Shown piece by piece: positions 1,763 to 58,468 of a stretch of DNA of 64,000 nucleotides. Position numbers and translations under genes: made by a program. Within the stretch, counting starts at the first letter, position 1. Each line of letters opens with the position of its first letter. The DNA is taken from the NCBI RefSeq assembly GCF_008014675.1, contig NZ_VOXD01000011.1, positions 1 to 64,000 of the forward strand, read 5' to 3'. Source of the stretch: Neolewinella aurantiaca (GTDB lineage: Bacteria; Bacteroidota; Bacteroidia; Chitinophagales; Saprospiraceae). The notes beneath the pieces were generated by a model. It did not search any database, was not told where the DNA came from, and was given only the letters and a program-made list of their open reading frames with translations.

Positions 1763-1782
1763 TTTGCACCTGCGGCCCCGCA
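1763..1782 (+). repeat. Dispersed 20-bp repeat, copy 1
   Basis: Matches the consensus TTTGCACCTGCGGCCGCGCC at 18 of 20 positions. Intergenic, between the terminator and smc. Confidence 0.75.
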
Positions 1783-1862
1783 TCCAAAATGTGTAAAACC
1801 CTGTGGAAATTGCGGGGAAAACTAAGCGGTGTACGTACTAACAAGCAAATGAACTAACTATC

Positions 1863-1870
1863 TACCTTCG
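1863..1870 (+). promoter_or_regulatory. smc promoter -7 box
   Basis: TACCTTCG fits the Bacteroidota -7 box TAnnTTTG with one change. It ends only 6 nt before the smc ATG, so transcription would begin at or next to the start codon. No clear -33 TTG is seen at the usual spacing. Confidence 0.5.
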
Positions 1871-1876
1871 CCCTCT

Positions 1877-4800
1877 ATGCGTTTACGCCAACTTGAAATT
1901 AAGGGCTTTAAAAGCTTTGCCAACCAGACGATCGTCAATTTCGACGAGGACGTTATCGGGATTGTCGGACCAAATGGTTCGGGAAAATCCAATATAGTTG
2001 ATGCTATCCGCTGGGTGTTGGGAGAGCAAAAAGGGAAAGAGCTCCGGCTGGATAAGATGAGCTCCGTCATTTTCAACGGAACAAAAAAGAAGAAGCCAGG
2101 TAGTCTTGCTTCGGTTAGCCTGACCTTCGATAACGACAAAGGGCTGTTACCGACCGAGTACAACACGGTAACGATAACCCGGATGCTGTACCGTTCGGGA
2201 GATTCGGAGTACCGTCTAAATGGAGTTCAGTGCCGTTTGAAGGATATTACATCGTTACTACTCGATACCGGGATTGGGTCAAACTCTTACGCGATAATCG
2301 CGCTGGGAATGGTTGACGACATCCTGAGCGACAAGGACAATAGTCGCAGGAAGATGTTCGAGCAGGCTGCGGGTGTGAGCAAGTATAAGGCGAGAAAGCG
2401 TGAAACGCTGAATAAGCTCAAAAACACAGAGGGCGATCTCGATAGGATTGAGGATCTGTTGCACGAAATAAACAATAACCTTGTCAGCCTTGAAAAACAG
2501 GCACGTCGTGCGCGTCGCTACCTGGAGATAAAGGAGCAATACAAGCAGCAAAGCCTGCAGCTGACCCAGGTGAAGGTATCCGCTTTACGTGAAGACTACG
2601 GTAAGTTGAAGGGGGAAATAGCCAAAGCCGAAGACGATTACCGTAACGTAGACGTAACCATCCGTAAGCTGGAAGCTACGCTTGAGGCAGAACGTGCAAA
2701 GCACATCGACAAGGAAAAACTGCTCGGTGAGCGCCAAAAGAAGCTCAACGAACTGGTCAACGAACTTCGGGGGCTGGAGAACGAGAAACAGATGCTGGCT
2801 CAGCGCAAAGCTTTTGTTCGCCGGCAAACTGAAAAGCTACAACAGGATATCGCGACTGCTTCGGGTCAGCTGACGGACTACGTGAGCCAGATCGAAGAAA
2901 TGGATAAGCGCCTTGAAGCCGAAAAGGCGGTGGCCGTTGAGCGAAAAACTGCGCTTGATGCAGCCGAAGAGGCGCTCAAGGAAATCCGTGCCGGACATGA
3001 GTCGTTGAAAGGAAGGCTGGACGAAGGGCTTAAAGCCCAGCAGGAAGAAGAGCGTAAGATTTTCGAACTGGAGAAGCGAAAAGCCATCAACGCAAACCAG
3101 GTTGACAACTATAAATACCAGATTGAGCGCAATGCCGGCGAAATGGATGACCGCCGGAGTGAAAAAGAGAGCCTTGAAAATTCGTTGAAAGAACTCGAGG
3201 CAGAGGAAGAGAAACAGCTCAAGGCGATTGAGAAACTCGAGCAGGCGGAGACAGACCGCCGGGAAGCGATGGATGCTGCTACTGAGGCTGTAGACCGTTT
3301 GCAAAACGAGCAGAGCAAGATCAATCGCGGCCTCGATGCCCGGCGGAACGAATTCAAGCTTACTAAGAGCATGATTGACAGTCTTGAGGGCTTTCCTGAA
3401 TCCATTCGCTTTCTCAGCCAGAGTAAGCAATGGAAGGAAGATCCTCAGCTGCTGTCCGACCTGGTTTTGGTAGACCAGGACTACCGCGTTGCGATTGAGA
3501 ACTACCTCGAAAGCTTCCTCAATTACTACGTTGTTGCCGACGCGGAAGAGGCGAAGCAAGCCATCGCTTTACTTAGCAAAAGTCAGAAAGGGAAAGCCAA
3601 TTTCTTTCTGCTCGATGCCATTCCTCCTTATCAGGGCGGACCTGCATTACTGCCACCAGGTACCCAACTTGCCACGGATGTGGTGAAAGTAGACAAGCAG
3701 TTTCAGCCGCTGTTGGATCACCTGTTGCATAATGTCCTGGTGACGACGACCGATGCTTTGCCGGAGCAGCCTCCGGAGGGCATATCCATTCTCAGCCAGA
3801 GCGGACGGTTTATCCGACGGCCATTCTCAGTTAGTGGCGGTTCGGTAGGCCTGTTCGAGGGTAAGAAGATTGGCCGAAAGAAGAACCTTGAAGTTCTGGA
3901 AAAAGCAATCACAGAAGCCGAAGCGAAAGCAAGGGTGATTGAGAAGGAATTGTACCAGGAGCGTAACAAACTCAATGAACTTCGACAGCGACGGGTAGAT
4001 AAAGACATTCAGGAAAAGCAGCGTGAGCTCAGTCGTTTGCAGCAAAAACGTGCCGGATTACGGGCAAGGGTTGATAGTTTCCAGAATTATTTTTCCGAAA
4101 CCGAGGCCAAAAACGAGAACCTTGCCAAGCAGGTAGCTGAGATCATCAAAACGAATTCTGTTATTGTTCGTGACCTGGAGACGAGTCAGCAGAAAGTGGA
4201 AACCATGCGTGAGCAACTGGCCGGTACCGACGGGAATTACCGTCAGTTGAGTGAACAGCTTTCTGAAGCAAGTGCTGGTTACAACCAGCACAACATCAGC
4301 TTTATTCAGCAGCAGAATCAGGTAGAGACGCTCGAACGAGAAATAGCGTTCCGGAGAAACAGGCTGAAAGAGTTGGGTGATCAGGACCTGAGCAATAAGG
4401 AGCAACTGGAGAAACTGGCCAAAGAGTCGCGTCAGTTCGAAGAACAAGAGAGTCTTCAGGCTAAGAACCTGGAAACTATGTACGCTAATCGTACAGAATA
4501 CCAAACGACGCTGAACGCTGCGGAGCAGGATTATTTTAGTGCGCGCACCGCTATCAACGCGATGGAGGACGATTTGCGGCGTGAAAACCGTCGCCGGCAG
4601 GATGGGCAGGTGTTGGTGAATCAGCTCAAGGAGAAGTTTACTGACATCAAATTCAAGATCAATGGCCTGGCGGAAAGGTTGAAGATCGAATTCAATATCG
4701 GACTGGAAGGGCTCAACGGTCTGGAGATTGAAGAATGGGTAGGCTCAGTAGGCGACCTCGAAGTTAAAGTCGACCGCCTGCGCGGCCGGATTGGCAATTA

Positions 4801-5571: not shown

Positions 5572-6342
5572 ATGAAGATAGCACTATTTGGCCACGGTAA
5601 AATGGGTCGATTCATAGAAGGCCTTGCCAAAACCGCAGGAGATGATATTGTACTGATCGTAGATGAGAACAACCGCACATCGGTGAAAGCGACAGACCTG
5701 GCCGTTGCAGACGTGATTATTGAGTTTACGCGGCCCGAATCGGCTATACCTAACATAGAGCTGGCTTTGGAAGCCGGAGTGCCTATTGTGGTAGGAACTA
5801 CCGGGTGGCTGGCGAAGCTTCCCGAAATATCCGACAAGGTTGATGCATCAGACGGAGCACTGTTCTGGGCGAGTAACTTCAGTATCGGTGTCAACGTGTT
5901 TTTCGAGGTAGCGGCGAGGGCTGCAGCACTGGCCAATCAGTACGGTGGCTATGAAGCCTCGGTGGAAGAAATCCATCACGTACAGAAGCTGGACGCGCCT
6001 TCCGGAACGGGAATTACCCTGGCGGAGGAGGTTGCCGCACAACTAGATGCTTATGATTCCTGGGCCCTGTCTGAGGTCCGGTCCGATGTACCACAAACTA
6101 AAATTGCACCTGCGTCTGCGCCCAAAGCGGGTAAATTGCCGGTTCCCATTACTTCTGTCCGGGAACCTGAAGTTCCGGGTACGCATATTTTCGAGCTGGC
6201 AAGCCAAGTGGATACACTAAGCCTGAAACATACCGCACACTCCCGGGAGGGCTTCGCAAAAGGCGCCCTAACGGCGGCCCGCTGGCTGGTGGGTAAACGG
6301 GGAGTGTTCACGATGAAAGACTTGCTGAAAACGAAGGACTGA
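5572..6342 (+). CDS. dapB: 4-hydroxy-tetrahydrodipicolinate reductase
   Basis: Reduces the DapA product to tetrahydrodipicolinate with NAD(P)H, in the lysine and diaminopimelate pathway that feeds peptidoglycan. The 256-residue protein starts MKIALFGHGKMGRFIE; GHGKMG is the form of the nucleotide-binding loop I associate with Bacteroidota. The catalytic region reads EEIHHVQKLDAPSGTG, with the expected histidine pair and the dipicolinate-binding Lys and SGTG. VPGTHIFEL and the final GVFTMKDLL motif are also typical. An in-frame ATG 15 nt upstream would add MYLRL but overlaps the promoter box, so 5572 is preferred. Codons at 6103-6122 match the dispersed repeat and encode APASAPK. It stands alone, with no other lysine gene beside it. 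Confidence 0.95.
   Translation: MKIALFGHGKMGRFIEGLAKTAGDDIVLIVDENNRTSVKATDLAVADVIIEFTRPESAIPNIELALEAGVPIVVGTTGWLAKLPEISDKVDASDGALFWASNFSIGVNVFFEVAARAAALANQYGGYEASVEEIHHVQKLDAPSGTGITLAEEVAAQLDAYDSWALSEVRSDVPQTKIAPASAPKAGKLPVPITSVREPEVPGTHIFELASQVDTLSLKHTAHSREGFAKGALTAARWLVGKRGVFTMKDLLKTKD
6103..6122 (+). repeat. Dispersed 20-bp repeat, copy 2 (inside dapB)
   Basis: 17 of 20 matches to the consensus, in sense orientation within dapB, read as GCA CCT GCG TCT GCG CCC (Ala-Pro-Ala-Ser-Ala-Pro). A more diverged copy; chance cannot be excluded for this one alone. Confidence 0.5.
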
Positions 6343-9161: not shown

Positions 9162-9181
9162 GGCGGGGCCGCAGGTGCAGG
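9162..9181 (-). repeat. Dispersed 20-bp repeat, copy 3
   Basis: 17 of 20 matches to the consensus on the minus strand, 10 nt beyond the terminator stem. Confidence 0.65.
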
Positions 9182-18900: not shown

Positions 18901-21900
18901 AATCAAGTACTTGTGTCGCCAATGTTTTGGTGGAAGATATTCTCCCCATCATCGTAATGACGCCAGGGGACATAACTCTTTCGAATGAAGCAGGTCTTTG
19001 TTCCGCCACTGCTACCTGGACTGAACCCATGGTTGAAGCTGTAGACTACCTGGAAAATTTTGAAGGGACTGAGAACAGCTTTATCGACTATGATGGTGGA
19101 ACCATGACCATAACTGCCTCCGGGACCAATGGCGTTACTTCGTTTGAGGGAGGCTTCCATGGTGTCGCTAATCAGGGCAATACAGGACCTTTCGGCCGGT
19201 TGGGCGGATACTCTTCTGAATTCGGAAACGGATACAGGGTGGAATCAAAGATTTATATTGATTTAACGGATGCTCAAGTAGCTGCAGGCACCTATGGTTT
19301 TGACTTGTCAGTAGCTGCAAACGGGGCGGATGGTGTCCATCAGCGTGATTTCGTGTTTCACGTAAGCTCTGTTGATGCCGCAGGGCAGGCATTTGTTGGT
19401 GCCAGTAATGGTACCACGTTCTCAATCCAATCGACAACCTCATCAAATGCTTTCGATACTAAAGCCGAAATTACAGCAACAGGCTGGTACACTTTTGAAT
19501 GGATCTTCTATGACAACGGCACCGGAACCCTTGCTGTTGATATGAACGTATCGGACGATGCAGGAACGCAGTTATTTACCGAAACCAGTAGCAACGCCGG
19601 TGATGCAATTGCAACAGAGATTGGTGGGAATCGTTATATGTGGTTCACGGTGATATCCGCCCAGAATGGTATTCCTGTCGACAACGTGCAAAAGTCGCAC
19701 AAAATCAATATTGACCTGACCAGTACCCACGCCAGTGGAGCGTCCTTTAACGTAGGTACAGAGACCGTAACTTATACTGCGACCACCGAATGTGGAGCTG
19801 AAGTCTCCTCCTCATTCGACGTGACGGTCAACGACACAGAAATGCCAATCGCTGGTTGTCAGGACATTGATGTCTTCGTTGACGAAAGCGGGAACGTCAG
19901 TACTACAGCTGAGGCAATCAACCTGGGGTCTTCTGACAACTGTACAGCCTCCGGGGATCTCACGTTGATGCTTGATCGTACCGCATTCAGTTGTGCTGAT
20001 ATTGGCTCCCCGGTTACAGTTACCCTGACGGTAATCGATGCTTCCCTGAACGAAGCCACTTGTACCGCTTCCGTCACGGTGCTCGATGAAATCGACCCTA
20101 CTGCCCTCTGCCAGAACATCTCGATAAACTTGGATGCTTCGGGCAATACTGCTATTGCCCCCGCTGATGTAAACGGAGGCTCCACAGACAACTGCACGCT
20201 TGAAGGAGACCTCATTCTTGCAATCGATGACAGCAGTTTCGATTGCTCCGACGCAGGGACACTCGCCCCGGTAGTGCTCACAGTAGAGGACGCCTACGGC
20301 AACTCAAGCACCTGTACCGCCCAGGTAACTGTGAACGACATCACGCCACCGACGATGGTCTGCATGGACGCGATGGTCGATCTTGACGGTACGGGTATGG
20401 GAAGCATTACGGTCGATGACATCGACGATGGCTCGTCTGACGCCTGTGGTATTGCCACCCGGGTACTCAGCCAGAGTGACTTTGGCTGTAACGACGTTGG
20501 ACAGGTGATGGTAACCCTTACCGTCACTGACGTCAACGGCAACTCCAATGAGTGCGAACAAATGGTTACTGTTCGTGACCTGATCGAACCCGACGCCATG
20601 TGCCAGGATATTAGCGTAAGTCTGGATGCATCCGGAAATGCCTCAATATCCGCAGGTGATGTAAACAACGGCTCGACGGACAACTGTGCAATCTCCTCCT
20701 TAAGCGTTTCTCCGGCCAGCTTTACGTGTTCAGAAGTTGGTGCTAATACAGTGACCTTAACGGTTAATGACGTCAACGGAAACAGTTCTACGTGCGACGC
20801 AACGGTCATCGTTACCGATCTCCTTGCACCTGCGTTCGCGCCTGAACCTGCTGACGAAATACTGACGACAGATGGCCTCGCCTCATGTCCGGGAGAAGCC
20901 CTTGTATCGCTCACCGATGGTGATGTAGTTGACGCTGGCGAATCGTTTACAATTGCCGGCCTTACCCGGAATGCTCCTGAATTTACCGACAACTGTTCCG
21001 ACAATACAACCATGACGGTTGGTGTTGTGGAAGCAGCCGATGCTGATAACTGTTCCCGAACTTTCACCCTGAGCTGGACGCTGAACGACGGTACAAATCA
21101 AACGGCAGCAACCCAGGTGTACACCATTGAGGACAACACCGATCCGGTGCTGAACCTGATCGGTGACGCCCTGATTGAACTTTGTGAAGACGGAACTTAC
21201 ACCGAGCCGGGAGTAACCGTTACGGATGAATGCACCGACGATCTGAAAATTTCGGTCGAAGAGACCTACACCTACGATGACGGCCTGGGCGAGGGGCCGG
21301 TTGCTGTCCTTGGTGGTGTCGATGAAACAGCGGTAGGAACCTATGTAATCACCTACACCGCGACCGATATCTGTGGCAACAGCACGAGTATCGAGCGCAC
21401 CGTTGAAGTGCGTGGCAAGCCGGTGACCGATCCAACGCTGCTGAGTATTTGTATCGGCTCAAGCGAAACCATTTCCGGCAACGCAATGGTCGGGGCAAAT
21501 AATGAGGCAGGAACGACAATCGCTTCTTACTTATGGACGTACGGCGGCGGCTCCGCCTCCGGCTTCACGATCAACGGAGGCTTTGTTTCCGCTGGCCAAA
21601 CGTACACCACCGAAGAGTTGGTGATCGACGCTGGTTTTGCTTCTGCAGGAAACGCCATCTTCACGCTTCAGGTAACCGACAGTGACCTGGGATGTGCTTC
21701 AGACAGTCCCGTTTTCCAGGTGGTGTTCAACGCAACCGCAACGGCCGGAACCGCTATTTCACCGAGCGAAGCCTTCTGTGAAGACGAAGGCAATGTTGAC
21801 CTCTTCTCTCTGCTCGACGGCGAGAACGCCGGTGGTTCATTTGTCCGCAATGGAGGTGACGGAACGGGAGGAACCCTGACCGGATCGACCTTCAATACAA

Positions 21901-24900
21901 GCGGTGCCGAAGGGACCTTCACCTTCACGTACACCGTTGGTGACGACGGATGTGTGCCCGATTCTGAAGACATCACCTTCACGGTAGACCCCGAGCCAAA
22001 TGCAGGTACCTTCAATGCATCAACCGCAGCTATCTGTACCGATGCGGCCGACTTCGACCTGACAACACTACTAGACGACGAAGATGAAGGTGGAACCTTC
22101 ATCAAAGTAAGCGGAACGGGAGGAACCCTGACGGGTGGCCTGTTTGACCCAACCGGAGCAACGCCCGGAACTTTCACGTTCCAGTACACCGTTGCCGGTG
22201 GTGAGTGTGACGATGCAATAAGCAACGTTTCCATCCAGATCGATGGCGCTGCCGATGCCGGTAACGCAACGGCTGGTTTTGCTGATGGCAATACCGAAGT
22301 AGACATCTGTTCCGACTTCGGAACCATAGACCTCAACAACCTGCTGGACGGAACCCAGACCGGCGGCGGAGCATTTGCGTTTGCCGACACCGGCGCTCCG
22401 GGAACCCTGATTGGTAGTAGCTACAACCCAGGGAATCTGGATGGCAGCGACGTCGTTTTTGTCCGTTTTACCTATACCGTAAACGGTAGTGGCGCTTGTG
22501 CGGCAGGAAGTGATGTTGAGATCATTCAGCTGGGTATTCAGCCGGCTCCTGATGCAGGTACGCTCAATCCGGAAGCGCAGAACAGCGTTTGTACCAATGA
22601 TCTTTCCTTCGACCTCTTCACCCTTCTTTCGGGTGAAGACGACGGCGGAACCTGGACCGAACTGACCAACAGCGGAGCGGTACTTTACGGCGACAACAAC
22701 GCCCTGATTGACGCCTCTATGGCGACGCCAGGAGCTGGCTACCAGTTTGCCTACATCGTATCCTCAACCGATCCCTGCCAGACCAGCGCCAGCATCACCG
22801 TTACCGTCAACTTCAACGAAGTCGCTACTGCGGATGCGGGCGAAGATCAGACGATCTGCTTCGGCGAATCAGCTTCACTGAACGGAACGTTTGGAGGAGG
22901 CGCGACCGCAGGTGCATGGGAAGGTGGAACGGGAACGTTCAGCCCCGATCGCAACGATCCTTCGGCAACTTACACACCCGACGTATCCGAAGCCGGAACG
23001 GTGGTAACCCTCACCTTTGTCGCTCAGGACCCCGACGGAACCGCCGGGCCATGTAGCGAGGTTACCGACGGAATTGACATTACGGTCAACGATGCTGTTG
23101 CAAGCATCAACGCCGGCGAAGCTACGGCTGTTTGCTATGAATTTAACGGACCCACTACCGTAACGCTTAGCGGTGAAATCCTGCTGGCCAGTGGTGCCGC
23201 AGGAACAGGAATCTGGACCACCGATGGAACAGGCAGTCTGGACGATCCGACTTCTCCAAGCCCGGTTTATACCGCCGGAGAGGCAGATGCCGGCAGCCTG
23301 GTGACCTTCACTTACACTGCTAACGACCCTGACGACGCTGGTCCTTGTGTTGGTGGACAGTTCGACATCGTCACCCTGAACGTCGAGGCGGTTCCTACTA
23401 TTTCCGTTGAACTTACCGCTCCGGCAGCTGCAACCATTGACGCCGAAAATTCATACGAGTCAACGGTATGCAACGGTACCGCTTTCACGGGAGCACTTGC
23501 GACGACCACTCCGTTCTCTAGTCAGGGAGATCCTCTCTTCCTGGCAATTGCGCTTACCGATCCGGAAGAACAGTTCGGATTCGGAGCCAGCTCGTTCTTC
23601 GTTGCTCCGGCTTTCGTTCCTGACGGAGAAGGAGGCATGGAGCCATTTGGTTTTGATGAAATGCTGGTCAATTCCGGCACCGAACCTATCACGCTGACTT
23701 TCGCTATCGCCCCGTACTACGAAACCACTCCGTTGGATCCCGGTTTCGCTCCAGGCAAATGCGTCGGACAAGCCATTCAGGTCAACATCACCATCAATCC
23801 TGTACCTACCGTTGCTGATCCTGCGGATCAAGTAGTCTGCGAAGGAACGATGACAACAGAAGTGACTTTCGTTGCGGATGGTGACGACACCAACCCTGCG
23901 ACAACCTATTCTTACACCGTTGCCGGTGATATGATTGGTGTGCCTGCAGATGACAACTCCGGGACTATTGTTGCCTTTGAACCTACTGCTACCGGAACGG
24001 CTACCATAACGGTTACCCCGACCTTTACCGACGGTGGCATAAGCTGTGACGGACCGACTCAAGAGTTTACGATCACGGTGAACGAAGGAGCGACCGTAGA
24101 TGCGGGCGCAGACCAGACGATCTGTCCGAATGCTACCGCTACGCTAGCGGCCACGATCGGTGGCTCAGCCACCGGTGGCACCTGGACCGGCGCCAATGCA
24201 GGAGAACTCTCCGATGAGAATGATCCTGCCGCAACCTTCACCCCAGACGCAAGTCGCCTGAACACAACGGTGACGCTGACCTTCACTTCTGAAGATCCGG
24301 AAGGACCTTGCCCTGCGGTGTCCGATATGGTAGAGATTACCGTTCAGGACCTGGATGCACCAGACTTTGTAGCACAGGATGATATTGATGTATCTAACGA
24401 CCCGGACAACTGCTCCGCGGAAGTAAGCTTCGGTGTTACCGAAGTAACTGATAATTGTTACCCTGAAAGCGGAATTACGGTAACTTACACCATTCCAGTC
24501 GCTATGGCTACGGATATGGAGATTACTTCTCCTGCAATCTTCCCGGTTGGTGCTACTACCGTTTCGGTCCTGATTGAAGATGCCGCTGGTAATTCTGCTA
24601 CTTCTTCGTTCACCGTTACAGTGACCGACACCGAGGCACCAATGGTAAGCTGTCCGGCCGGACCACTTACTACCGGAACCGATGCAGGTCAATGTGCCGC
24701 AAGCGTAGCCTTCGAAGCTACAGCGACCGACAACTGTGATACAGAAGTTGACATCGTCTACACAATCTTTGTTAGTGAAATACCGGCTGTAATCACCTCA
24801 GGGTACGATTTTCCGATCGGAACCACCACCGTAACCGCTACGGCTACTGATGACGAAGGCCTCACTAGCACGTGTGCATTTGATGTTACCGTAACTGACG

Positions 24901-30815: not shown

Positions 30816-31949
30816 ATGAAAATTTTCTATACATTTCTGTTCTGTTTGTGTTCCCTGGGAGCCGCAGCTCAGTGCAACGGCGCCGGAGGAGCATTCCCCG
30901 CGTTTGGCTTTACCCCTGGTCCCCCGCCTATTGACGACTCAAAACAATTTGCACTTCAAATCTCAGGCTTGCCCCTGCCGGATTCTGGAAATGGTGAGTT
31001 GGATTACTTTGCCGTTACTACCGCCGAAGGCAATGTCGTTGGTTGCGGTCCGGTATCGTCCAACGGATCCGTCGCAATTGGTAACATGCAAATCAATTTT
31101 GAATGCGGAAACACAGTGCCGGAGGCACTGAATTGTGCAGCTACACCAGCCTGTGACAACTGTGAAACGTTTCAGGTTTTCTATTACGATGTTTCTACCC
31201 AGTTGTACTACCAACTGGAAAACACCTCAAACCCTGGTTCACCGTTAGAGTTTCTTTTTGTTGATGTGAATGATAACGGCGACGGCACGTTCGGCGATGG
31301 TATCGTTGATGGCTACGGTGCAACGGAGGCCGTAAGCGGAGCAAATACTGAGGATGCTGATGTCAGCAGTGCTACCATGAATTTTGAGGATTTCTTTCTG
31401 CCTCTGCCCGTTTCCTTCGCTGCTTTTACCGGCCAGCAAGCCGAGAAGTCAATCGAACTGGACTGGGTCACAGCCACGGAAAGCGGAAACGATTTTTTTG
31501 CCGTCGAGCGCTCCAATTCAGGAAGTGATTTCGAAGAAGTAGGCAGGGTCGCAGCAGCCGGAGATTCCGAAGTTGCTACCAGCTACGAGTTCATTGACCG
31601 CACTCCCGCGGAGGGCCTCAATTATTACCGTTTGCGCCAGATCGATGCAGACGGAGACTTCAGCTTTTCCTCCGTTCTCCTGATCGATTTTAAGGGCGCA
31701 GACGCAGGTGCAATGATTGTTTCACCTAACCCGGCAACAAACCATCTCTCGGTACGGCTGAGTGGTGACTGGTCAGCTGAAACCGTTAACGGTCAACTCT
31801 TCGGAGCCAGTGGTCGTCTGATTAAAAACTGGCAGCAACGCCCGGGAACTTCCTCAACGATCGACCTGGCGGGTGTTCCTGCCGGTATTTACCAGTTGAG
31901 GATGAACGACGGCAAAACCCGTCAGATACAACGCGTCATCGTACGCTAA
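30816..31949 (+). CDS. T9SS-exported protein with C-terminal sorting domain
   Basis: A 377-residue protein. A signal peptide covers about residues 1-18 (MKIFYTFLFCLCSLGAAA), before QCNGAGG. The N-terminal half is Cys-rich (CNCETFQV region) with an acidic, calcium-loop-like stretch DVNDNGDGTFGDGIVDG. The middle LPVSFAAFTGQQAEKSIELD is the common Bacteroidota linker that leads into a fibronectin-like fold (TATESGNDFFAVERS...YYRLRQIDADGDFSFS). The last 75 residues or so, from MIVSPNPATNHLSVRL, are a T9SS type A sorting domain. It lies 69 nt after the giant gene and could be co-transcribed with it if the intervening hairpin leaks. It may be a partner or a separate surface protein; the function of the N-terminal half is unknown to me. 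Confidence 0.88.
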   Translation: MKIFYTFLFCLCSLGAAAQCNGAGGAFPAFGFTPGPPPIDDSKQFALQISGLPLPDSGNGELDYFAVTTAEGNVVGCGPVSSNGSVAIGNMQINFECGNTVPEALNCAATPACDNCETFQVFYYDVSTQLYYQLENTSNPGSPLEFLFVDVNDNGDGTFGDGIVDGYGATEAVSGANTEDADVSSATMNFEDFFLPLPVSFAAFTGQQAEKSIELDWVTATESGNDFFAVERSNSGSDFEEVGRVAAAGDSEVATSYEFIDRTPAEGLNYYRLRQIDADGDFSFSSVLLIDFKGADAGAMIVSPNPATNHLSVRLSGDWSAETVNGQLFGASGRLIKNWQQRPGTSSTIDLAGVPAGIYQLRMNDGKTRQIQRVIVR

Positions 31950-32009: not shown

Positions 32010-32144
32010 TCTTGTTTGGTATCGTAGCCGGAGCTGATACTACTGTCGGTTTAGCGCCAGGAGCGGTAACTTTTCGGTGGGGAAATACTGTTGCCAGCAA
32101 TAGCGCTTTCTCAAACCCTCAGATCAAAGAATACTACCATTGCT

Positions 32145-32672: not shown

Positions 32673-32678
32673 ACAAGC

Positions 32679-32698
32679 TTTGCACCTGCGGCCGCGCC
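32679..32698 (+). repeat. Dispersed 20-bp repeat, copy 5 (exact consensus)
   Basis: TTTGCACCTGCGGCCGCGCC, the perfect copy, starting 6 nt after the GNAT stop. It contains the 8-bp palindrome GCGGCCGC. Confidence 0.85.
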
Positions 32699-32741
32699 CT
32701 CTGTCTTTTAAAGAATCCTGGGCTAATGCGGCCTGAAATTG

Positions 32742-32768
32742 CCGGACGGGCACTAGTTGCCCAACCGG
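32742..32768. terminator. Hairpin between convergent genes
   Basis: An inner 5-bp stem (32748-32752 with 32758-32762) is flanked by an outer CCGG pair (32742-32745 with 32765-32768). It overlaps the 3' end of the S24 regulator and may stop transcription from either side; there is no clear T-run. Confidence 0.35.
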
Positions 32769-33580
32769 TCGATTGCAGCCGACAGGCGGTTGATCATCTT
32801 GCCCTGCTTGTCGATGGTCTCCTTCAGTCCCAACATTTCGTCGTGGACGTAGCGCTGAATGTTCTGCGGAGAAGGAAGGAACGGCGTAATGCGGGCCCGA
32901 ACGTACCATATTTCCCGCAGGTCGGCCATTGATACACGGTAAGACTCGTAGAACTTATTATCAGGAATAAGCTCAAGCTCTTTGCTTTCTTCAATCAGGT
33001 TTTTTACCCGCCGGACCGCTACATCGCTGCGCGTAACGATGACGTAGGCATAGTTGTCCTTGATGCCGGAGGCCCACAAAGTAGGCTCCAGAAACGAGCA
33101 AACCACCTTATCTCCTTCGAAGAGGGTAGGCTCCATACTGTCGCCCGGGACATCGAAACTGCGGTGTGTACCCACCTTGTATTTGTAGTCGGGGAGGCTG
33201 AACGTAGGAAGATCCTGCACAAAAGACGGATCGCCTAATTCAGCGGAGTAAACAGACTGTGCCGGAAGCGGTACGTGAACTATAAGTTCTTCGTCGTTAG
33301 GCGATTGTATGGTGGTGAGTACCCGGAAGCTCTGGTTGGTTTCCTCGGTCATAAACATCGGGCCATCTCCCGTCATGATGTAAACCGGATTCATTTTGTA
33401 TTTTGCAATAGCCTTGCGCAGCAGTTCAATGGTTACATCACGTCGGCCCTTAAGAATCTCAGAAAGAGATTGTGGTAAATACTCCAGCGAAAGGGCAAAT
33501 TGCCTGCTGGAACGTACCCGTTTTTCCTCCCTGAGTTTATTGTGGCATTTGATGAAGCGCTGGGAGACGACGTTATTCAT
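32753..33580 (-). CDS. S24-type (LexA/CI-like) transcriptional regulator
   Basis: A 275-residue protein. The N-terminal 75 residues or so look like a helix-turn-helix (RQFALSLEYLPQSLSEILKGRRDVTIELLRKAI, as in XRE-type repressors). A linker then leads to an S24 peptidase fold with the serine in FDVPGDSMEPTLFEGDKVV and a likely general-base lysine in VAVRRVKNL. The C-terminal helix (MLGLKETIDKQGKMINRLSAAIDRL) may form a coiled coil. LexA and phage CI relatives cut themselves when RecA is activated; many Bacteroidota homologues without a cut site are plain regulators, and I cannot identify an Ala-Gly or Cys-Gly cut site with confidence. No prophage genes lie nearby. A consensus promoter box and small inverted repeats upstream suggest self-regulation. 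Confidence 0.88.
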   Translation of the reverse strand: MNNVVSQRFIKCHNKLREEKRVRSSRQFALSLEYLPQSLSEILKGRRDVTIELLRKAIAKYKMNPVYIMTGDGPMFMTEETNQSFRVLTTIQSPNDEELIVHVPLPAQSVYSAELGDPSFVQDLPTFSLPDYKYKVGTHRSFDVPGDSMEPTLFEGDKVVCSFLEPTLWASGIKDNYAYVIVTRSDVAVRRVKNLIEESKELELIPDNKFYESYRVSMADLREIWYVRARITPFLPSPQNIQRYVHDEMLGLKETIDKQGKMINRLSAAIDRLGN

Positions 33581-37749: not shown

Positions 37750-39114
37750 TTAATCTGCCGTGGATATCCGTAGTACTTCGGTATGGTGAGGTAGTACCTT
37801 GAATTTCTCTGAGATACAGTAGCCGGTGATGGCCATGATCTCGTCGTCGGCGTTACACAGCAGGTAGATTTGATCACGCAGCCAAACGGGGACTTTCTCG
37901 TCGATCATGTAGTCCTTCACCTTCTTACTTTTACCGCCCATTCCTAGTGGTTGGAAGCGGTCTCCTTTTCGGCGCGGCCGCAGGTGCAGGGGGAGGGGTA
38001 GAGGAGCGAGGAATAACGGACTGGAGGTATTAAGCACTTCAGGCCGAGGGACGAGCTCAATGGTTAGTTTATGGTGGCCTCCCTTAAGTGAACACGGGAG
38101 TTGCTTGATTTCTGTAGCGGGGAGTGATTTATCTCCATAGGTCTTAAAGTCGAAAGACCAGGTTTTGGGTGTTACATAAGCTATCATGTTCTTACCCTCA
38201 ATGGTGCGTTGGCCGGGGACAGTGATGATTTGCTTGAATTCTTCGTTCGTAAAACTATTTTCTCGTAGCGGGAGTGATCGTAAGAAAGCCAGTTGATCGA
38301 TACCTTTAGGGAAAGCGGTGCGGTCAATAACCAGCATTTCTCCAGTGCCCCAGTCATTAATTACTACTTCTTTAAAAACAGCGCTGAATCCATGTCGATA
38401 AATCCTCTCATCAGCCCGGAGGTTGTTTGCGGTATTTGCCCAGGTATTGATCGACATGCCAAATTCATCGTAGAACACGGGGGCTAAATGATGACGGATT
38501 CTGTTGCGTAGGTAATTGTCTGAAGCGTTACTTTCGTCTTCTCTCCAATTGAGGTTTTTTGCCCGGGCGTAAGCTAGGATGGAGGCTCTACTGCTATTAA
38601 GTAACGGACGTACTTTGGTATGGGGAATCAGTCCGTAAATAGATTCAGATTTTGGCTCTATTCCACTAATTCCCCTGAAGCCTGTACCTCTGATTAGATT
38701 CATCAGGACGGTTTCAAAGTTGTCTTCTAAATGATGAGCTATTACTAAATGTAACATGCTGCAGTCTTGCTCAATAACGATTTCGTCAAACCACTGGTAC
38801 CGCAATCGCCGGGCAACCATCTGCGTACTCTCGCCCGGGAGTGCTTCTTTTTTAGCGTCCACTGCCTTAAGGAAAAACTTTGCTCCCAGCGTCCGCGCCA
38901 GATCCTCGACAAAGGCAGCATCTTCGTTGGAGGCTTCGCCCCGCAACTGGAAGTTCATGTGCGCAATAGCAAAATCGTAACCTTCGGCGTGCAGCAAGTG
39001 CGCTAGTACGGTACTGTCCAGCCCGCCGCTACAAGCCAGCAAAAGCTTGTCCGTCTTCGTAAACAGTTGCTCACGCTCAACAAATTCCCGAAATGTCGTA
39101 ACTAAATCCGTCAT
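37750..39114 (-). CDS. tilS: tRNA(Ile)-lysidine synthase
   Basis: Modifies C34 of the CAU-anticodon tRNA(Ile) to lysidine with ATP and lysine, so that the tRNA reads AUA. It has 454 residues. The N-terminal PP-loop is ACSGGLDSTVLAHLL (SGGLDS at 29-34), followed by FAIAHMNFQLRGEASNEDA and the HLVIAHHLEDNFETVLMNLIRGTG signature of TilS. The C-terminal domain contains LRPRRKGDRFQPLGMGGKSKKVKDYMIDEKVP, the usual tRNA-binding motif. The codons for LHLRPR overlap a copy of the dispersed repeat (37971-37990). The gene is transcribed away from a tandem array starting only 34 nt upstream of its ATG, so its promoter probably lies in or near that array. It is essential in most bacteria. Confidence 0.96.
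   Translation of the reverse strand: MTDLVTTFREFVEREQLFTKTDKLLLACSGGLDSTVLAHLLHAEGYDFAIAHMNFQLRGEASNEDAAFVEDLARTLGAKFFLKAVDAKKEALPGESTQMVARRLRYQWFDEIVIEQDCSMLHLVIAHHLEDNFETVLMNLIRGTGFRGISGIEPKSESIYGLIPHTKVRPLLNSSRASILAYARAKNLNWREDESNASDNYLRNRIRHHLAPVFYDEFGMSINTWANTANNLRADERIYRHGFSAVFKEVVINDWGTGEMLVIDRTAFPKGIDQLAFLRSLPLRENSFTNEEFKQIITVPGQRTIEGKNMIAYVTPKTWSFDFKTYGDKSLPATEIKQLPCSLKGGHHKLTIELVPRPEVLNTSSPLFLAPLPLPLHLRPRRKGDRFQPLGMGGKSKKVKDYMIDEKVPVWLRDQIYLLCNADDEIMAITGYCISEKFKVLPHHTEVLRISTAD
37971..37990 (-). repeat. Dispersed 20-bp repeat, copy 6 (inside tilS)
   Basis: 18 of 20 matches, in sense orientation relative to tilS and read as CTG CAC CTG CGG CCG CGC (Leu-His-Leu-Arg-Pro-Arg). It overlaps a conserved motif of the TilS C-terminal domain. 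Confidence 0.7.
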
Positions 39115-39148: not shown

Positions 39149-39697
39149 GCGAAGTCGCATATCAAGTATCGCCAATTGCATACCCCATATTTTGCTTGTG
39201 TGGCAGCGAAGTCGCATATCAAGTATCGCCAATCGCATATCGCATATTTTGCTTGTGCGGCAGCGAAGTCGCATATCAATATCGCCAATTGCATATCGCA
39301 TATTTTTCTTGTGCGGCAGCGAAGTCGCATATCAAACATCGCCAATCGCATACTTTGCTTGTGCGGCAGCGAAGTCGCATATCGCCAATCGCCAATCGCA
39401 TATTTTGCTTGTGTAGCAGCGAAGTCGCATATCAATATCGCCAATCGCATATCGCATATTTTGCTTGTGCGGCAGCGAAGTCGCATATCAATATCGCCAA
39501 TCGCATATCGCATATTTTGCTTGTGCGGCAGCGAAGTCGCATATCAAATATCGCCAATCGCCAATCGCATATTTTGCTCGTACGGCAGCGAAACCGCATA
39601 TCGCCAATTGCATATTTTGCTTGTGTAGCAGCGAAGTCGCATATCAAGTATCGCCAATCGCCAATCGCATATTTTGCTCGTGCGGCAGCGAAATTGA
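39149..39697. repeat. Tandem array of about 56-bp units upstream of tilS
   Basis: Ten units and a truncated eleventh begin with GCGAAGTCGCATATC or a variant at 39149, 39206, 39263, 39319, 39369, 39419, 39475, 39531, 39588, 39631 and 39688; periods are 57, 57, 56, 50, 50, 56, 56, 57, 43 and 57. The constant part is about 31 bp (TTTTGCTTGTGCGGCAGCGA and on through AGTCGCATATC). The variable part is built from the small motifs ATCGCCA and ATCGCATA, which explains the length steps. The unit has almost no stop codons in any frame, so long but meaningless frames cross it. Not a CRISPR, since the would-be spacers resemble each other. Confidence 0.95.
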
Positions 39698-40428: not shown

Positions 40429-40526
40429 AGGAGCACACAACAGGAACTGTAGTTACCTCAGTCATCAAAGGTGAAATTTTGGCAAGGTGATTTTATTATC
40501 CGGCGAACTGACAAGTTGAAAGCATA

Positions 40527-40589
40527 GCCGTAGCTACGGCAAAACTCGGCGGTGAAGCCGGATGGTAAAAGCGGCCGCTAAAAACCATC
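40527..40589. other. Cluster of three hairpins
   Basis: In 63 nt there are a perfect 14-bp palindrome (40527-40540), a CGGC/GCCG hairpin (40547-40560), and GATGGT/ACCATC arms (40561-40566 with 40584-40589) around the palindrome AGCGGCCGCT (40570-40579). It lies in the 311-nt gap between glgP and the MiaE-like gene, where no coding frame is seen. Confidence 0.5.
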
Positions 40590-40637
40590 TGGGATGGCCG
40601 AGGCAACTATATAATTCCTCTTGAGCAGTAGATTGAA

Positions 40638-43518: not shown

Positions 43519-43538
43519 GGCGCGGACGCAGGTGCAGG
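43519..43538 (-). repeat. Dispersed 20-bp repeat, copy 7
   Basis: 17 of 20 matches on the minus strand, in the non-coding stretch upstream of glgP. Confidence 0.65.
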
Positions 43539-44161
43539 GTGAGGTGTCGAAGCCGGTCACCGTTGGCATAAACAGATTGGTGAACCTTGCTTGATGATCG
43601 GACTTCGCCGTATTGTGCATGATAAACACGGTGAGCTCAGCTATCCGTGGAATGAGTCCCCGGTTGTGTCTGGAAGCATAATTCAGAAGGCTCATACACA
43701 CTACTGATTACCTAATGCAAACCAACCCGGAATAAACTGAGTAGGGCAAAACTCGACATTTCAGGTGAAACCGCCAAATCAGCCTGTTGTGCGCTGGCAA
43801 AGGCAAAATATTACCAGCTGGCCAGAGAATCGCTAACAGGGATACTCACACGGTAGAGCACGGACACTAAAGACATTCGCTTTTAGGGATTATTACCTTG
43901 ACAGTGCTGTTCGGGCAGACTTCATGTTGCCGTTTCCCGGACTTTAGCCCGGAAGATTGATGGAGGAAAGATTAGATCGACCTGATCGTTATTTTATCAC
44001 GCTAAAGCATGATAATTAGTGGCCTAAAGACTGCCGGACAGTGCTTTCGGCGGTATGGAAACCCATGTACGGCAAAAGCGATTGCCCTACCCGGAGCAAT
44101 TACCGTTAGGTCTTTGGTTATTAGCTTGTGACCTCAACTCGCATCCGGCAACTTTCTTCCC

Positions 44162-45760: not shown

Positions 45761-45780
45761 TTTGCACCTGCGTCCGCGCA
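45761..45780 (+). repeat. Dispersed 20-bp repeat, copy 8
   Basis: 18 of 20 matches; intergenic between the phosphatase gene and gltB. Confidence 0.75.
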
Positions 45781-52550: not shown

Positions 52551-54110
52551 ATGAGAATTACCACACTTTTAATAGCTTTACTCTGCACCTGCGGCCTCGC
52601 CCGCCTGGATGCCCAGGAAGCCGTTAACGAAGACATCAACACCATCATCCGTAAGCACGGCTTGGAACAGAGCCAGGCCATGGAAATCGCCGGCTGGATG
52701 ACCGACGTTTACGGCCCCCGCCTCACCGGATCGCCAATGCTGGACAAGGCCACCGACTGGGCGCAAAAAACGCTGAACGAGTGGGGAATGAAGAACGTCC
52801 ACCTCGAAGAATGGGGCCCTTTCGGTACCGGTTGGGAAATGTCTCACTTCGAAATGCATGCTTCCAGCCCGAGTTATTGGCCATTGATCGCCTACCCAAA
52901 GGCCTGGTCGCCATCCGTGAAGGGAACGGGAAGCGTCATCTACATGGCCGCCGAAACGGTCGAAGACCTCGCGCAGTACAAAGGCAAACTGAAGGGGAAG
53001 TTCGTCCTGCTCGATACCATCCGGGAGGTCAAAGAAATCTGGGAGCCCAACGCTAAACGGCACGATGCGGAAAGCCTGTTGGACATGGCGAATGCTCCAA
53101 TGCCGACTCCACGACCACGCCGTAACTACAACCTGGGGGCCCGCGGTTTCCGGACAGCACTGTGGGAACTTATGGAAGAAGAAAAACCGCTGGCAATTCT
53201 GGACCGCAGTTATAAAGGCGACCACGGAACAGTGTTTGTTTCCAGTGCACGAACGGCCGAAGGCCGGTCTCGCGACAAAGACAAAAAGGTAGTCCCACAG
53301 GTGACCGTTGCGGTGGAACACTACAACCGCATCCTCCGTAACCTGCAGCGTGGGATCGATGTGAAACTGAGCATCGACATGAAGGCCGAGTATACCAACC
53401 CGGACGAAATGGAGCACAACATCATCGCCGAAATCCCCGGAACCGACCTTAAAGACGAGGTAGTCATGTTCGGCGCTCACTTCGACTCATGGCATACCGC
53501 TACTGGTGCAACCGACAACGGGGCCGGCTCTACCGTCATGATGGAAGCGGCCCGTATCCTGCTGGAAACGATCAAGGAAAGCGGTGTACAACCCCGCCGT
53601 ACCCTCCGCCTCGCGCTCTGGACCGGCGAAGAGCAGGGCCTGCTGGGCTCGCGCGGGTACGCCAAAGACCATTTTGCCGTTTTCCCTCCCGACAGCTACA
53701 CGCCCCAAAGCCTGAAACCTGAGCAGGAAAAAATCTCTGCTTACTATAATCTGGATAACGGAACCGGAAAAGTTCGGGGTATTTACCTGCAGGGCAACGA
53801 GGCGGTTGCACCCATCTTCCGTGCCTGGCTGCAACCTTTCAAAGACCTCGACGCCAGCACGGTGAGCCTCGGCAATACCGGAGGCACCGATCACCTCACT
53901 TTCGATGCCGTAGGCATACCCGGCTTTCAGTTCATTCAGGAGCCGATGGCCTACTTTGCCCGTACCCACCACTCGAATATGGATAACTTTGATCACCTGT
54001 CCGGAGAAGACCTCTCGCAGGCGGCTACGATTATCGCCTCTTTCGTGTTCCATACTGCGATGCGCGACGAAATGCTGCCCCGGAAAGAAAGTAAGATAGA
54101 CGGGAAATAA
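52551..54110 (+). CDS. Secreted M28 family aminopeptidase/carboxypeptidase
   Basis: A 519-residue zinc peptidase. ATG 52551 opens a signal peptide (MRITTLLIALLCTCGLARLD before AQ) preceded by no Shine-Dalgarno. A PA-like insert occupies the middle (VKGTGSVIYMAAETVEDLAQ...KGKFVLLD), as in exported M28 enzymes. The catalytic domain has the zinc and base motifs VMFGAHFDSWHTATGATDNGAG, WTGEEQGLLGSRGYAKDH, YNLDNGTGKVRG and GGTDHLTFDAVGIPGFQF. No T9SS sorting domain is present, so it is probably periplasmic or released another way. Codons for LCTCGLA in the signal peptide overlap a dispersed-repeat copy. It stands alone after gltBD. Confidence 0.94.
   Translation: MRITTLLIALLCTCGLARLDAQEAVNEDINTIIRKHGLEQSQAMEIAGWMTDVYGPRLTGSPMLDKATDWAQKTLNEWGMKNVHLEEWGPFGTGWEMSHFEMHASSPSYWPLIAYPKAWSPSVKGTGSVIYMAAETVEDLAQYKGKLKGKFVLLDTIREVKEIWEPNAKRHDAESLLDMANAPMPTPRPRRNYNLGARGFRTALWELMEEEKPLAILDRSYKGDHGTVFVSSARTAEGRSRDKDKKVVPQVTVAVEHYNRILRNLQRGIDVKLSIDMKAEYTNPDEMEHNIIAEIPGTDLKDEVVMFGAHFDSWHTATGATDNGAGSTVMMEAARILLETIKESGVQPRRTLRLALWTGEEQGLLGSRGYAKDHFAVFPPDSYTPQSLKPEQEKISAYYNLDNGTGKVRGIYLQGNEAVAPIFRAWLQPFKDLDASTVSLGNTGGTDHLTFDAVGIPGFQFIQEPMAYFARTHHSNMDNFDHLSGEDLSQAATIIASFVFHTAMRDEMLPRKESKIDGK
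52582..52601 (+). repeat. Dispersed 20-bp repeat, copy 9 (inside the M28 signal peptide)
   Basis: 18 of 20 matches, in frame TGC ACC TGC GGC CTC GCC (Cys-Thr-Cys-Gly-Leu-Ala), supplying the end of the hydrophobic part of the signal peptide. Confidence 0.7.
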
Positions 54111-54875: not shown

Positions 54876-54897
54876 AGCCACCCAAACCAAACAACCA

Positions 54898-57800: not shown

Positions 57801-58143
57801 AGAGCCTACCTCCCGCTGGACTAAGCCTACGCTGGCTCTGATCAACGAAGCACAATACTCCGACGGACACTGCTTCGCTTGTGGTTACACCGACCTCAAA
57901 ATCGGTAAAACGGTTGGAATGCCTACGCCGGGTACCTGCTCCTTCGCCGGGTGGGAGCGCCTGCCCGACGGATCGGTATGGGGAGTAGTTCCTGTTTCGG
58001 CCAAAGACATCAACGGCAACTGGATGGAAAATAACCAGACGGAACCGATGATCAAGGTCAAAAACATGCCAGGAGTCGTTGACCAGGGGCGCGACGAGCA
58101 ACTGGAGCGTGCCATCGCGGAATTACTAAAAGACGTTAACTGA
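54898..58143 (+). CDS. Exported tricorn-type S41 family protease
   Basis: A 1,081-residue serine protease. GTG 54898 is preferred because it opens directly into a signal peptide (MKNLLLLFCAIVSFSSYGQ, with V read as M) and lies behind a promoter-like box; the longer frame from 54802 has an unlikely N-terminus. Domains in order: a PD40/WD40-like propeller (PDGSQIAFTYKGDLYKVPA and later SPDG blades); a very charged Lys-Asp linker near nt 56590-56690; a second propeller part; the tricorn core with Ser769-His770 in LNVSHAG; a PDZ domain (GILIDEVLAGGPLDKAAF); and the S41 domain with nucleophile Ser988 in NEAQYSDGHCF. Tricorn cuts peptides made by other proteases. Here the signal peptide implies periplasmic work, perhaps with the M28 peptidase. 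Confidence 0.93.
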   Translation: MKNLLLLFCAIVSFSSYGQTAPNWLRHAAISPDGSQIAFTYKGDLYKVPAAGGTATQLTFHDAHDYMATWSKDGKQLAFASERYGNFDVFVMPATGGQARRLTFHSNAEVPYSFAPDGKSVYFGALRQDDVRHRQYPHRSQSELYSVPVDAGRVSQVMTVPAEFVQATKDGKTIFYHDKKGGEDEYRKHQNSSITRDLWRYDTKTGKHTQLTTNTAEDRQPVLSADEKTLYFLSERSGSFNVFKMPVNDPARAEQLSKFSKHPVRFLSIGGGTLCFGYDGELYTMKEGGEPQKVAVSIITQDKANTDKFISISGGVSEMEVSPSGKEIAFIARGEVFVTSVGESFTKRLTNTPEQERFVTWGPDGKSVVYSSERDGKWSIFETKKVRGEEPFFYAATLINETPVLENESDNYLAQFSPDGKKMAYVKGRRSIVVRDVASGSETVLMDSSELFHMGDGDKYFTWSPDSEWLLIEWDVLLNNSEVLLMKADGSKRVNLNESGYYDSRPKWVNGGKQMIWFTNRDGLKSYATSGRSEQDVYAMFFTQEGWDNFNLSDEEFKLMKAVKEAEKKDKKDKKDKDKKDDDKKDDDKKDDEKKVEKLAFDWDNMDERTKRLTIHSSRLGDAVLSKDGEKLYYLSTFEKGANLWSTNLRTKATKMEMKIGSNGRLEWDKDMKNLYLLSGGRISKIDVAKSKKETVKISGEMAYDVEAERQAMFDHVWIRTNAVFYEPTFHGIDWNMMRTEYQKYLPSIGNSFELTEMLSEMLGELNVSHAGARYRSSGFTNPDKTASLGIFMNYDHKGNGILIDEVLAGGPLDKAAFNVKPGMIIEAINGETILANRDVASYLNRKEGEFTLLELVDPATKKRDTITMKPISLGEENGLLYKRWVKMNEKEVDEKSGGTLGYVHIPGMGDGPYRSIYQDMMGKYFNRKAMIVDTRFNGGGDLVADLAMFFTGTPFITYATEAKVVGGEPTSRWTKPTLALINEAQYSDGHCFACGYTDLKIGKTVGMPTPGTCSFAGWERLPDGSVWGVVPVSAKDINGNWMENNQTEPMIKVKNMPGVVDQGRDEQLERAIAELLKDVN

Positions 58144-58418
58144 TGAATATTTTTGCTTTGAAGGGCCACCGGGTACGGGCGGTTGATCCATTACCGCCAC
58201 CTAGCAACGGCTGGCCGACCATTGACCCGCAAGGACTGACGGCCGGAGAACTTTATACAGTAGAGTGTACTGAGGTTCACAGCTACAACACGGTTGTTTC
58301 CTTACAGGAAATCTCCGATCGCAGTTACAACTCGGTGCTCTTCGAAGATGTAGACGAACAGTCGGAAGAGGATGATGCGAAACACCCCTACCATCAGAGG
58401 GACGAAGAAGACTATTAA
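58143..58418 (+). CDS. Small protein overlapping the tricorn-type gene
   Basis: A 91-residue protein whose ATG overlaps the tricorn stop by one base (TGATG), a typical arrangement for coupled translation. It begins MNIFALKGHRVRAVDP. The middle TAGELYTVECTEVHSYNTVVSLQE is strand-like, and the end is strongly acidic (FEDVDEQSEEDDAKHPYHQRDEEDY). There is no signal peptide and no membrane segment. Because the tricorn protein is probably exported and this one is not, a direct complex is doubtful. I do not recognise the family. The overlap and codon pattern support a real gene, but its short length leaves some doubt. Confidence 0.7.
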   Translation: MNIFALKGHRVRAVDPLPPPSNGWPTIDPQGLTAGELYTVECTEVHSYNTVVSLQEISDRSYNSVLFEDVDEQSEEDDAKHPYHQRDEEDY

Positions 58419-58448
58419 TCAGGGATCTGTTTTTTCTGAGAAACTGCC

Positions 58449-58468
58449 TTTGCACCCGCGTCCGCGCC
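58449..58468 (+). repeat. Dispersed 20-bp repeat, copy 10
   Basis: 18 of 20 matches, intergenic, 30 nt after the stop of the small gene. One of its two differences lies within the otherwise invariant GCACCTGCG core. Confidence 0.75.

Follow-up and report, generated by a model that had tools for sequence, protein, structure and literature searches.

The 64-kb window analysed here (64,000 nucleotides of a contig of the marine bacterium Neolewinella aurantiaca) raises the question of why one 20-bp element recurs along it on both strands, in genes and between them. A near-match scan of the window, allowing ≤3 mismatches on both strands, found 12 copies, compared with none in 100 dinucleotide shuffles. 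The ten copies named in a preliminary description of this DNA were all recovered at their coordinates and strands with 0–3 mismatches, while two on the minus strand, starting at 22899 and 31695, had been missed. A degenerate copy that it had placed near 7358 was located at 7360 (−), but with five mismatches; at that stringency the window also contains one match to the reversed control. No Rfam family was detected in the window at gathering scores.

Several copies are intergenic, at 1763..1782 (+, two mismatches), 9162..9181 (−, three), 45761..45780 (+, two) and 58449..58468 (+, two), together with 43519..43538 (−, three), which is intergenic by gene calling. The exact copy at 32679..32698 (+) falls between genes by gene calling, and an opposite-strand open frame (32124-32909) also spans it. 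Others are coding. The copy at 6103..6122 (+, three mismatches) lies in dapB (Pfam) in frame 0 and reads APASAP, and genome G003 has a copy at the same place. A giant gene (9621-30746), with HYR domains identified by Pfam in the part scanned, holds one copy in frame 0 at 20823..20842 (+, three mismatches; APAFAP) and one of the two newly found copies, antisense, at 22899..22918 (−, three mismatches). The other new copy, at 31695..31714 (−, three mismatches), is antisense in gene 30816-31949, which carries a type IX sorting domain (Pfam). Within tilS (Pfam), the copy at 37971..37990 (−, two mismatches) is read in the LHLRPR frame and has same-place copies in G002, G003, G005, G008 and G018, and the copy at 52582..52601 (+, two mismatches) codes part of the signal peptide (LLCTCGLA) of an M28 peptidase (Pfam). 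Frame assignment and reading of the sequence bore out the frames previously given for four genic copies (APASAP, APAFAP, LHLRPR and CTCGLA).

Counts beyond the window confirm that the dispersed repeat is real. Genome-wide, we found 63 exact 20-bp copies (28 and 35 by strand) and 1,232 copies of the core GCACCTGCGNCCGCGCC with ≤1 change, each against a reversed control of 0, and 464 kb of the genome contains 123 copies with ≤4 changes (control, 0). This is the genome-wide count that the preliminary description had called for, and it lies far above chance. The word is non-palindromic and about 20–28 bp long, with the own-genome form aacc...C-ttTGCACCTGCGNCCGCGCC, then often an A-rich stretch. 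HIP1 of cyanobacteria is likewise a very abundant, dispersed genomic word; unlike that 8-bp palindrome, the Neolewinella word is longer and asymmetric.

Because some copies encode signal-peptide ends and Ala-Pro linkers, a peptide motif recurring for the protein's sake could in principle generate such a pattern. The 123 copies in 464 kb divide into 69 intergenic, 26 sense and 28 antisense, with a core consensus common to all three classes, and genic copies occur in several reading frames. We reject the peptide-level reading because antisense and intergenic copies have the same core, and regard it as practically without credit; the earlier statement that selection or copying acts on DNA rather than on a peptide is borne out. 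Copy density is 0.83 per kb between genes and 0.14 per kb within them, a ratio of 5.8 that is somewhat overstated because the simple gene caller set some starts late, so that copies in signal peptides were counted as intergenic. With respect to neighbouring genes, 24 of the 69 intergenic copies lie in divergent gaps (~21 expected from intergenic length) and 5 in convergent gaps (~10 expected), while gaps between same-direction genes hold 23 copies oriented along and 17 against the genes (~19 each expected). A promoter or terminator element was rejected as a candidate, since these 69 copies show no fixed orientation to adjacent genes.

The arrangement of copies along the chromosome is ordered in other ways. 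Strands are balanced, at 604 versus 628 core copies genome-wide and 64 versus 59 in the 464 kb, and three stretches show no skew (41/37, 16/17 and 7/5), strand neutrality being judged from genome totals and these three stretches. Copies are spaced more evenly than chance, at ~4 kb (spacing CV 0.826 versus 0.98 simulated, p 0.0145), and adjacent copies alternate in strand (78 versus 42, p 0.0013). The lack of strand skew genome-wide and in the three stretches and the alternation of neighbours argue against an oriented signal of the Chi or KOPS type. A 21-kb stretch free of the word is a polysaccharide-use-like cluster, a single instance bearing on whether the word, as expected of uptake sequences of the DUS/USS type, favours core and genome-maintenance genes. 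Even spacing, strand alternation and intergenic enrichment all favour the main rival to the reading that we prefer below, namely that the word is bound inside the cell by an abundant protein with a role in organising or marking the chromosome, such as a nucleoid protein, a loop anchor or a repair or recombination factor. Selection for function would then keep the word, and the protein would have co-evolved with it. Against such a site, conserved enzymes, dapB and tilS among them, tolerate the word in more than one reading frame, and the lack of strand bias argues against Chi- or KOPS-like roles. We consider this explanation unlikely, though it deserves serious attention.

Close pairs suggest a further alternative. 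Of 90 distinct pairs less than 600 bp apart, 69 are head-to-head. In 26 of these 69 the copies are no more than 95 bp apart, and a hairpin is often predicted in the gap, as might be expected of a mobile REP-, BIME- or MITE-like repeat inserting around the genome. Pair distance and inner sequence are variable, however, and 100 isolated copies have neither a hairpin nor a decayed partner. In the isolated copies, an inverted-repeat unit with one decayed arm was rejected, the best upstream match being hardly better than the downstream one, as was an upstream hairpin: predicted folding there averages −11.9 and −12.1, and random intergenic DNA folds at least as strongly (−12.6). Orthologous sites also count against insertion: among 301 comparisons, which count both directions of a pair and are not independent, 248 are gap-free, and ≥10 bases are missing in only 9, which come from three sites where the comparison crosses dialects. 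A mobile repeat, one of three options raised in the preliminary description, is thus contradicted, and we hold it to be very improbable.

The same comparisons indicate how sites change. A counterpart element lies within 6 bp in 179 of the 301 and is absent in 122; every one of the 6 comparisons from G000 to the G001/G007 dialect belongs to the latter. Sites differ mainly by substitution at fixed places, in genes and between them, and insertion is rare. At 41 sites, per-site identity is 0.83 for the element, compared with 0.70 for neighbouring windows (Wilcoxon p 2e-5) and 0.74 for windows drawn at random from the same alignments (p 5e-5). Conservation is higher in the element than next to it in 57 of 80 comparisons, although not in all. 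Fixed-place conservation is also consistent with the chromosomal protein site. Conservation above the surroundings and point substitution at fixed genic and intergenic sites could further be produced by a selfish word spreading through recombination or gene conversion, in which the word is the target of a host enzyme and is copied during repair, independently of uptake. We identified no such enzyme, the evenness of spacing would be left unexplained, and recombination-initiating cut sites tend to be lost rather than gained; we judge this mechanism improbable.

The word is also carried by two cultured members of the genus, N. persica DSM 23188 and N. agarilytica DSM 24740. Related Neolewinella species carry their own dialects of the word, which largely follow a one-gene tree built from one protein and rooted at the midpoint, in which the branch to G011 is long. 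Dialect consensus sequences, each built from 7 to 151 copies, were obtained for 17 of the 20 genomes tried, with seeds chosen per genome after k-mer counts; those of G019, G016, G020, G008 and G017 rest on 7–11 copies. The 20-kb samples of G013, G012 and G009 contained fewer copies than a consensus needs, and G010 was outside the sample. The word of G011 is very different, with 761 copies. Dialects are not clean, because G005, a member of the CCGCGCC clade, also holds 244 copies of the CCCCGCCC form. Across 117 genomes from other genera of the family, each has 0–5 core matches. The comparison with related genomes that had earlier been proposed thus revealed dialects within the genus and a word nearly restricted to it among the genomes examined. 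A comparable dispersed word was not found in the small samples (49–100 kb) of G021, G022, G023+G024 and G096, the 13-copy words of G096 being set aside. For the chromosomal protein site, co-evolution of word and protein would have to account for the dialects. Hundreds of sites per genome carrying other dialects within one genus would be better explained by drive than by site-by-site selection.

We therefore asked how far the word resembles the uptake signals DUS and USS, for which many of the properties found here have also been described (accounts in PMC2346458 and PMC3630211). It shares with DUS/USS-type sequences its copy number, occurrence on both strands, genic copies in several frames with an intergenic excess, inverted close pairs, phylogeny-following dialects, substitution at fixed sites, and the presence of comEC and dprA, which is unspecific. 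ComEC was found in 21 of 21 genomes of the genus and DprA in 20 of 21 (absent only from a genome that is 55% complete), and this proves little because most control genomes match too (10 of 14 and 11 of 14, respectively). One DUS/USS-type property that the genus appears to lack, judged by the PF00437 ATPase, is a type IV pilus whose pilin acts as receptor: a PF00437 profile search gave no convincing type IV pilus ATPase in the 21 genomes. Partial matches occur in 20 of the 21, 11 of them barely above the cut-off, the best cover 82–84 of 370 positions, and two that we examined are ClpB-type chaperones. A pilin receptor of the ComP kind is therefore unlikely. This result also favours the chromosomal protein site.

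Of the three options in the preliminary description, an uptake-like sequence fits most of the tests, and we lean, by a narrow measure, towards an uptake-signal-like sequence with a non-pilus receptor. The word would be read during DNA uptake by a surface protein outside the type IV pilus and maintained by uptake bias. Neolewinella cells would favour DNA of their own dialect in binding and uptake, and biased uptake with homologous recombination would let matching point variants accumulate at tolerant sites. Weighing against this reading are the want of a convincing pilus ATPase, the length of the word, the 122 orthologous comparisons lacking a counterpart, the comparisons in which the element is no better conserved than its neighbours, and the second form in G005. 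A broader proposal, which we advance tentatively and with slightly less than even confidence, is that Neolewinella has a sequence-specific uptake system and, with it, the first uptake word to be identified in Bacteroidota. On this view ≥20 bp are read by a receptor other than a type IV pilus, and the system has diversified into at least five dialects in one genus, that of G011 being almost unrelated in sequence.

Comparison with known systems sharpens both the likeness and the differences. In the parts of the literature available to us, uptake words come from two families, Neisseriaceae and Pasteurellaceae, with pilins as their proposed or known receptors. The DUS of Neisseriaceae is described with ~1,500 copies in both orientations, genic and intergenic, with inverted pairs (PMC3630211, PMC2346458), and with species dialects congruent with a core-genome tree (PMC3630211), where we have a one-gene tree. 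Unlike DUS, the Neolewinella word, whose role in uptake is putative, is unrelated in sequence, longer, and found in a Bacteroidota host with no convincing type IV pilus ATPase. The USS of Pasteurellaceae similarly combines a core with a longer extended motif, two dialects and high density (PMC12616744, PMC2346458), but its core is unrelated and its predicted receptor is a type IV minor pilin (PMC12616744), whereas Neolewinella has no convincing pilus ATPase. Uptake words are quoted at 10–12 bp in PMC2346458, shorter than the Neolewinella word, though a 17-bp extended USS is described in PMC12616744. Within Bacteroidota, PMC7965970 presents candidate k-mers of Riemerella and Flavobacterium, among them A-rich 10-mers such as AAAAATAAAA whose function its account leaves open, and reports that R. 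columbina prefers its own DNA in uptake; the Neolewinella word differs in being long, specific, divided into dialects and described here from sequence. In the open-licence literature, searched by titles and the starts of abstracts, we found no uptake tag described for Bacteroidota or Bacteroidetes. Open-licence searches also returned no publication linking Neolewinella to competence, only unrelated titles for Saprospir with natural transformation, and no occurrence of a 17-mer of the word.

If the uptake reading is true, Neolewinella would provide a third case of uptake words, unrelated to the two known and with many dialects in one environmental genus. Such independent evolution could test why uptake words exist, through drive or adaptation, and would direct attention to a novel class of DNA receptor. 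Were the word a chromosomal protein site instead, >1,000 sites at conserved positions, with several dialects within a single genus, would still imply an undescribed DNA-binding system.

Matches to the word also turned up in viral contigs. The core pattern matched at least 120 stretches of them. Within those 120 loci we counted 174 occurrences of the core with ≤2 changes, a figure that takes in the matches by which the loci were fetched, against 20 for the reversed control. Several good copies occur in each of a few viral contigs, IMGVR_UViG_3300009467_000002 among them; these contigs are possibly host or prophage DNA. The G011 word was found in 5 stretches of viral contigs.

A scan of the window with TTTGCACCTGCGGCCGCGCC at ≤3 mismatches returned 12 matches, compared with none in 100 dinucleotide shuffles; all ten copy positions listed in the preliminary description were right, and two further copies lie at 22899 and 31695, both on the minus strand. 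The genome of Neolewinella aurantiaca as a whole (5,995,659 bases in 104 contigs, 99.3% complete) contains 63 exact copies of TTTGCACCTGCGGCCGCGCC (28 and 35 by strand) and none of the reversed pattern. The same description had called for a count across the complete genome, and the shorter core, GCACCTGCGNCCGCGCC, at ≤1 mismatch gave 604 and 628 matches on the two strands against 0 for the reversed control, bearing out the dispersed element. Complete reading of 464 kb (the window plus 280 kb of one contig and 120 kb of another) gave 123 copies at ≤4 mismatches, or about one per 3.8 kb, and 0 for the control. The exact 20-mer occurs in at least 107 stretches of the contig collection and, among the matches listed, belongs to Neolewinella, Lewinella or a 'Bacteroidia bacterium' MAG throughout. 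Exact copies are present in 15 of 40 genomes examined, every one in the genus Neolewinella, which contributed 21 of the 40 and has 6 genomes without an exact copy; other genera show 0 to 5 core matches per genome (117 genomes from a family-wide draw of 120). One genome of another genus (G096, loci L200-L204) carries words such as CAGCGCGGTATC, with 13 copies in a 100-kb sample, and several good copies of the element lie in a contig labelled viral, IMGVR_UViG_3300009467_000002 (L248, L284), whose origin may be host, prophage or phage.

Genome-wide counts in the 21 genus genomes (N. aurantiaca, G000, and G001 to G020) show that word-poor species carry other words, here called dialects. G011 has 761 copies of TTGCTACTTTGTTAGCC at ≤2 changes, against 0-2 per genome for the remaining 20, and ACCTGCGCTCCGCCGC at ≤1 change occurs 572 times in G001, 160 times in G007 and 0 to 105 times elsewhere, while GCNCCTGCGNCCCCGCCC is found 317 times in G012, 244 in G005, 178 in G017, 117 in G009 and 0-71 in the others. 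Consensus refinement, attempted on 20 genomes, succeeded for 17: ...CCGCGCC in G000, G003, G008, G018, G005, G002, G006 and G019; ...CAGCGCC in G014; ...tcCcCGCC forms in G004, G017, G020 and G016; ACCTGCGCtCCGcCGCcc in G001 and G007; GCACCTGCGctc...cc in G015; and CaTTGCTACTTTGttAgCcaaaa, a putative dialect, in G011. A single-protein tree (a conserved carbohydrate phosphorylase by Pfam, 853 aa) makes G001 and G007 sisters (100/100) and joins the CCCCGCC species to them (100/99). The other clade consists of the CCGCGCC species together with G014, which is nested among them, and G015, which branches basally (85/85). G011 has the longest branch and is also deepest at the midpoint root. The exception is G005, which falls within the CCGCGCC clade yet has many CCCCGCCC copies too.

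Orthologous sites were compared within the same dialect in eight genomes (80 site-by-genome comparisons, 41 distinct sites). The element was gap-free in 66 of the 80, with at most 11 gap letters in one element, and its per-site identity was 83%, compared with 70% in neighbouring windows (Wilcoxon p = 2e-5) and 74% in windows drawn at random from the same alignments (p = 5e-5); it exceeded its neighbours in 57 comparisons and the random windows in 54. A wider set, with fetched stretches from 20 genomes and the dialect pattern of each, gave 301 comparisons, both directions counted. Here a counterpart element lay ≤6 bp away in 179, where by our estimate density alone predicts well under 1%, and was absent in 122, including each of the 6 in which sites of G000 were sought in G001 or G007. 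Gap-free alignment was seen in 248 of the 301, and ≥10 bases were missing in 9, from three sites compared across dialects. These comparisons show that the places of the element are often kept across species and that it changes by substitution.

Along the genome, copies are denser between genes (0.83 per kb) than within them (0.14 per kb), a 5.8-fold ratio that is somewhat overstated due to late start calls in gene calling. Copies between genes are not oriented consistently relative to their neighbours: divergent, convergent, along and against arrangements number 24, 5, 23 and 17, where intergenic length predicts approximately 21, 10, 19 and 19. The strands are balanced (64 vs 59 copies). Successive copies alternate in strand above chance (78 vs 42, p = 0.0013) and still do so at distances above 400 bp (64 vs 42, p = 0.04). 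Spacing is more even than random (CV 0.826 vs 0.98, p = 0.0145), including when close copies are merged at 400 bp (p = 0.0085) or 1,000 bp (p = 0.02). Among 90 distinct pairs <600 bp apart, 69 are head to head (remaining arrangements: 14, 4 and 3), 26 of these at ≤95 bp, and a hairpin is frequently predicted in the DNA separating the two copies. As a single example, a 21-kb word-free stretch in contig C1 of N. aurantiaca is a cluster encoding a hybrid sensor, a TonB receptor, a GH2 enzyme and type IX sorting-domain proteins; clusters of this kind are often exchanged between strains.

The consensus of aligned copies is aacc...C-ttTGCACCTGCGNCCGCGCC followed by an A-rich stretch, with the same core in 69 intergenic, 26 sense and 28 antisense copies. 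The element is non-palindromic, and isolated copies show neither a hairpin nor a decayed partner copy beside them. Copies inside genes differ in reading frame and encode, among other things, Ala-Pro linkers. Genic copies in the window fall in dapB and tilS (named by Pfam), on both the sense and the antisense strand (one each) of a giant HYR-domain gene, antisense within a gene that has a type IX sorting domain, and in the part of an M28 peptidase gene that encodes its signal peptide. The element also recurs as a signal-peptide end, LLLxxLCTCxRAQ or LCTCxRAQ (for example, window 52582-52601): in the material scanned, 40 of 495 distinct copies lie in this frame 20-100 nt after the ATG of an open frame of at least 100 codons, and by a simple rule a hydrophobic stretch precedes 32 of them. 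By this count, a word at the DNA level has become part of the secretion signals of many proteins. A secondary variant, CACCTGCTGCCGAGCC or close to it, recurs in N. aurantiaca at 8758, 102443, 176052 and 185295 of contig C1 and 152041 of contig C28.

Uptake sequences are described as present in hundreds to thousands of copies that show no general orientation bias, include inverted pairs in intergenic DNA and in many cases lie within genes (PMC2346458). In Neisseriaceae, the dialects of different species are reported to agree with the core-genome tree (PMC3630211), and extended dialects are reported for Pasteurellaceae (PMC12616744). Riemerella columbina, of the Bacteroidota, is reported to prefer its own DNA, with A-rich candidate k-mers listed for the Riemerella work (PMC7965970). 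With DNA uptake sequences (DUS) and uptake signal sequences (USS) so described, the element shares abundance, lack of orientation bias, inverted pairs, genic copies and dialects. All 21 genus genomes have ComEC and 20 have DprA, both of which are common in bacteria. Matches to PF00437, the type IV pilus ATPase family, occur in 20 of 21 genomes, always to a partial profile and in 11 barely above the cut-off, and both matches examined are ClpB-type chaperones, making the known receptor type unlikely. Given the shared properties and this result, we lean slightly towards the proposal, by analogy, that the element works like DUS/USS and would be read by an unknown receptor, with no formal assignment to either class. 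The main rival, that the element is the site of a chromosomal protein, we consider rather unlikely.

The giant HYR-domain gene is a single 7,041-codon open frame (window 9621-30746), two scanned parts of which contain HYR, PKD, Ig-like, beta-helix and type IX sorting domains; its predicted product is a giant secreted protein. Between tilS and the next gene, at 39380-39690, is an intergenic tandem repeat of ~60 bp, atcgccaatcgc...tattttgcttgtg...gcagcgaag, inside which a look-alike of the element with 5 mismatches lies at 39673. A separate dispersed repeat of ~160 bp occupies 40450-40611, with copies in contigs C39 and C14 of the same genome and at least 10 in G011, and a further one of ~175 bp, at 43877-44051, recurs in at least five other N. 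aurantiaca contigs.
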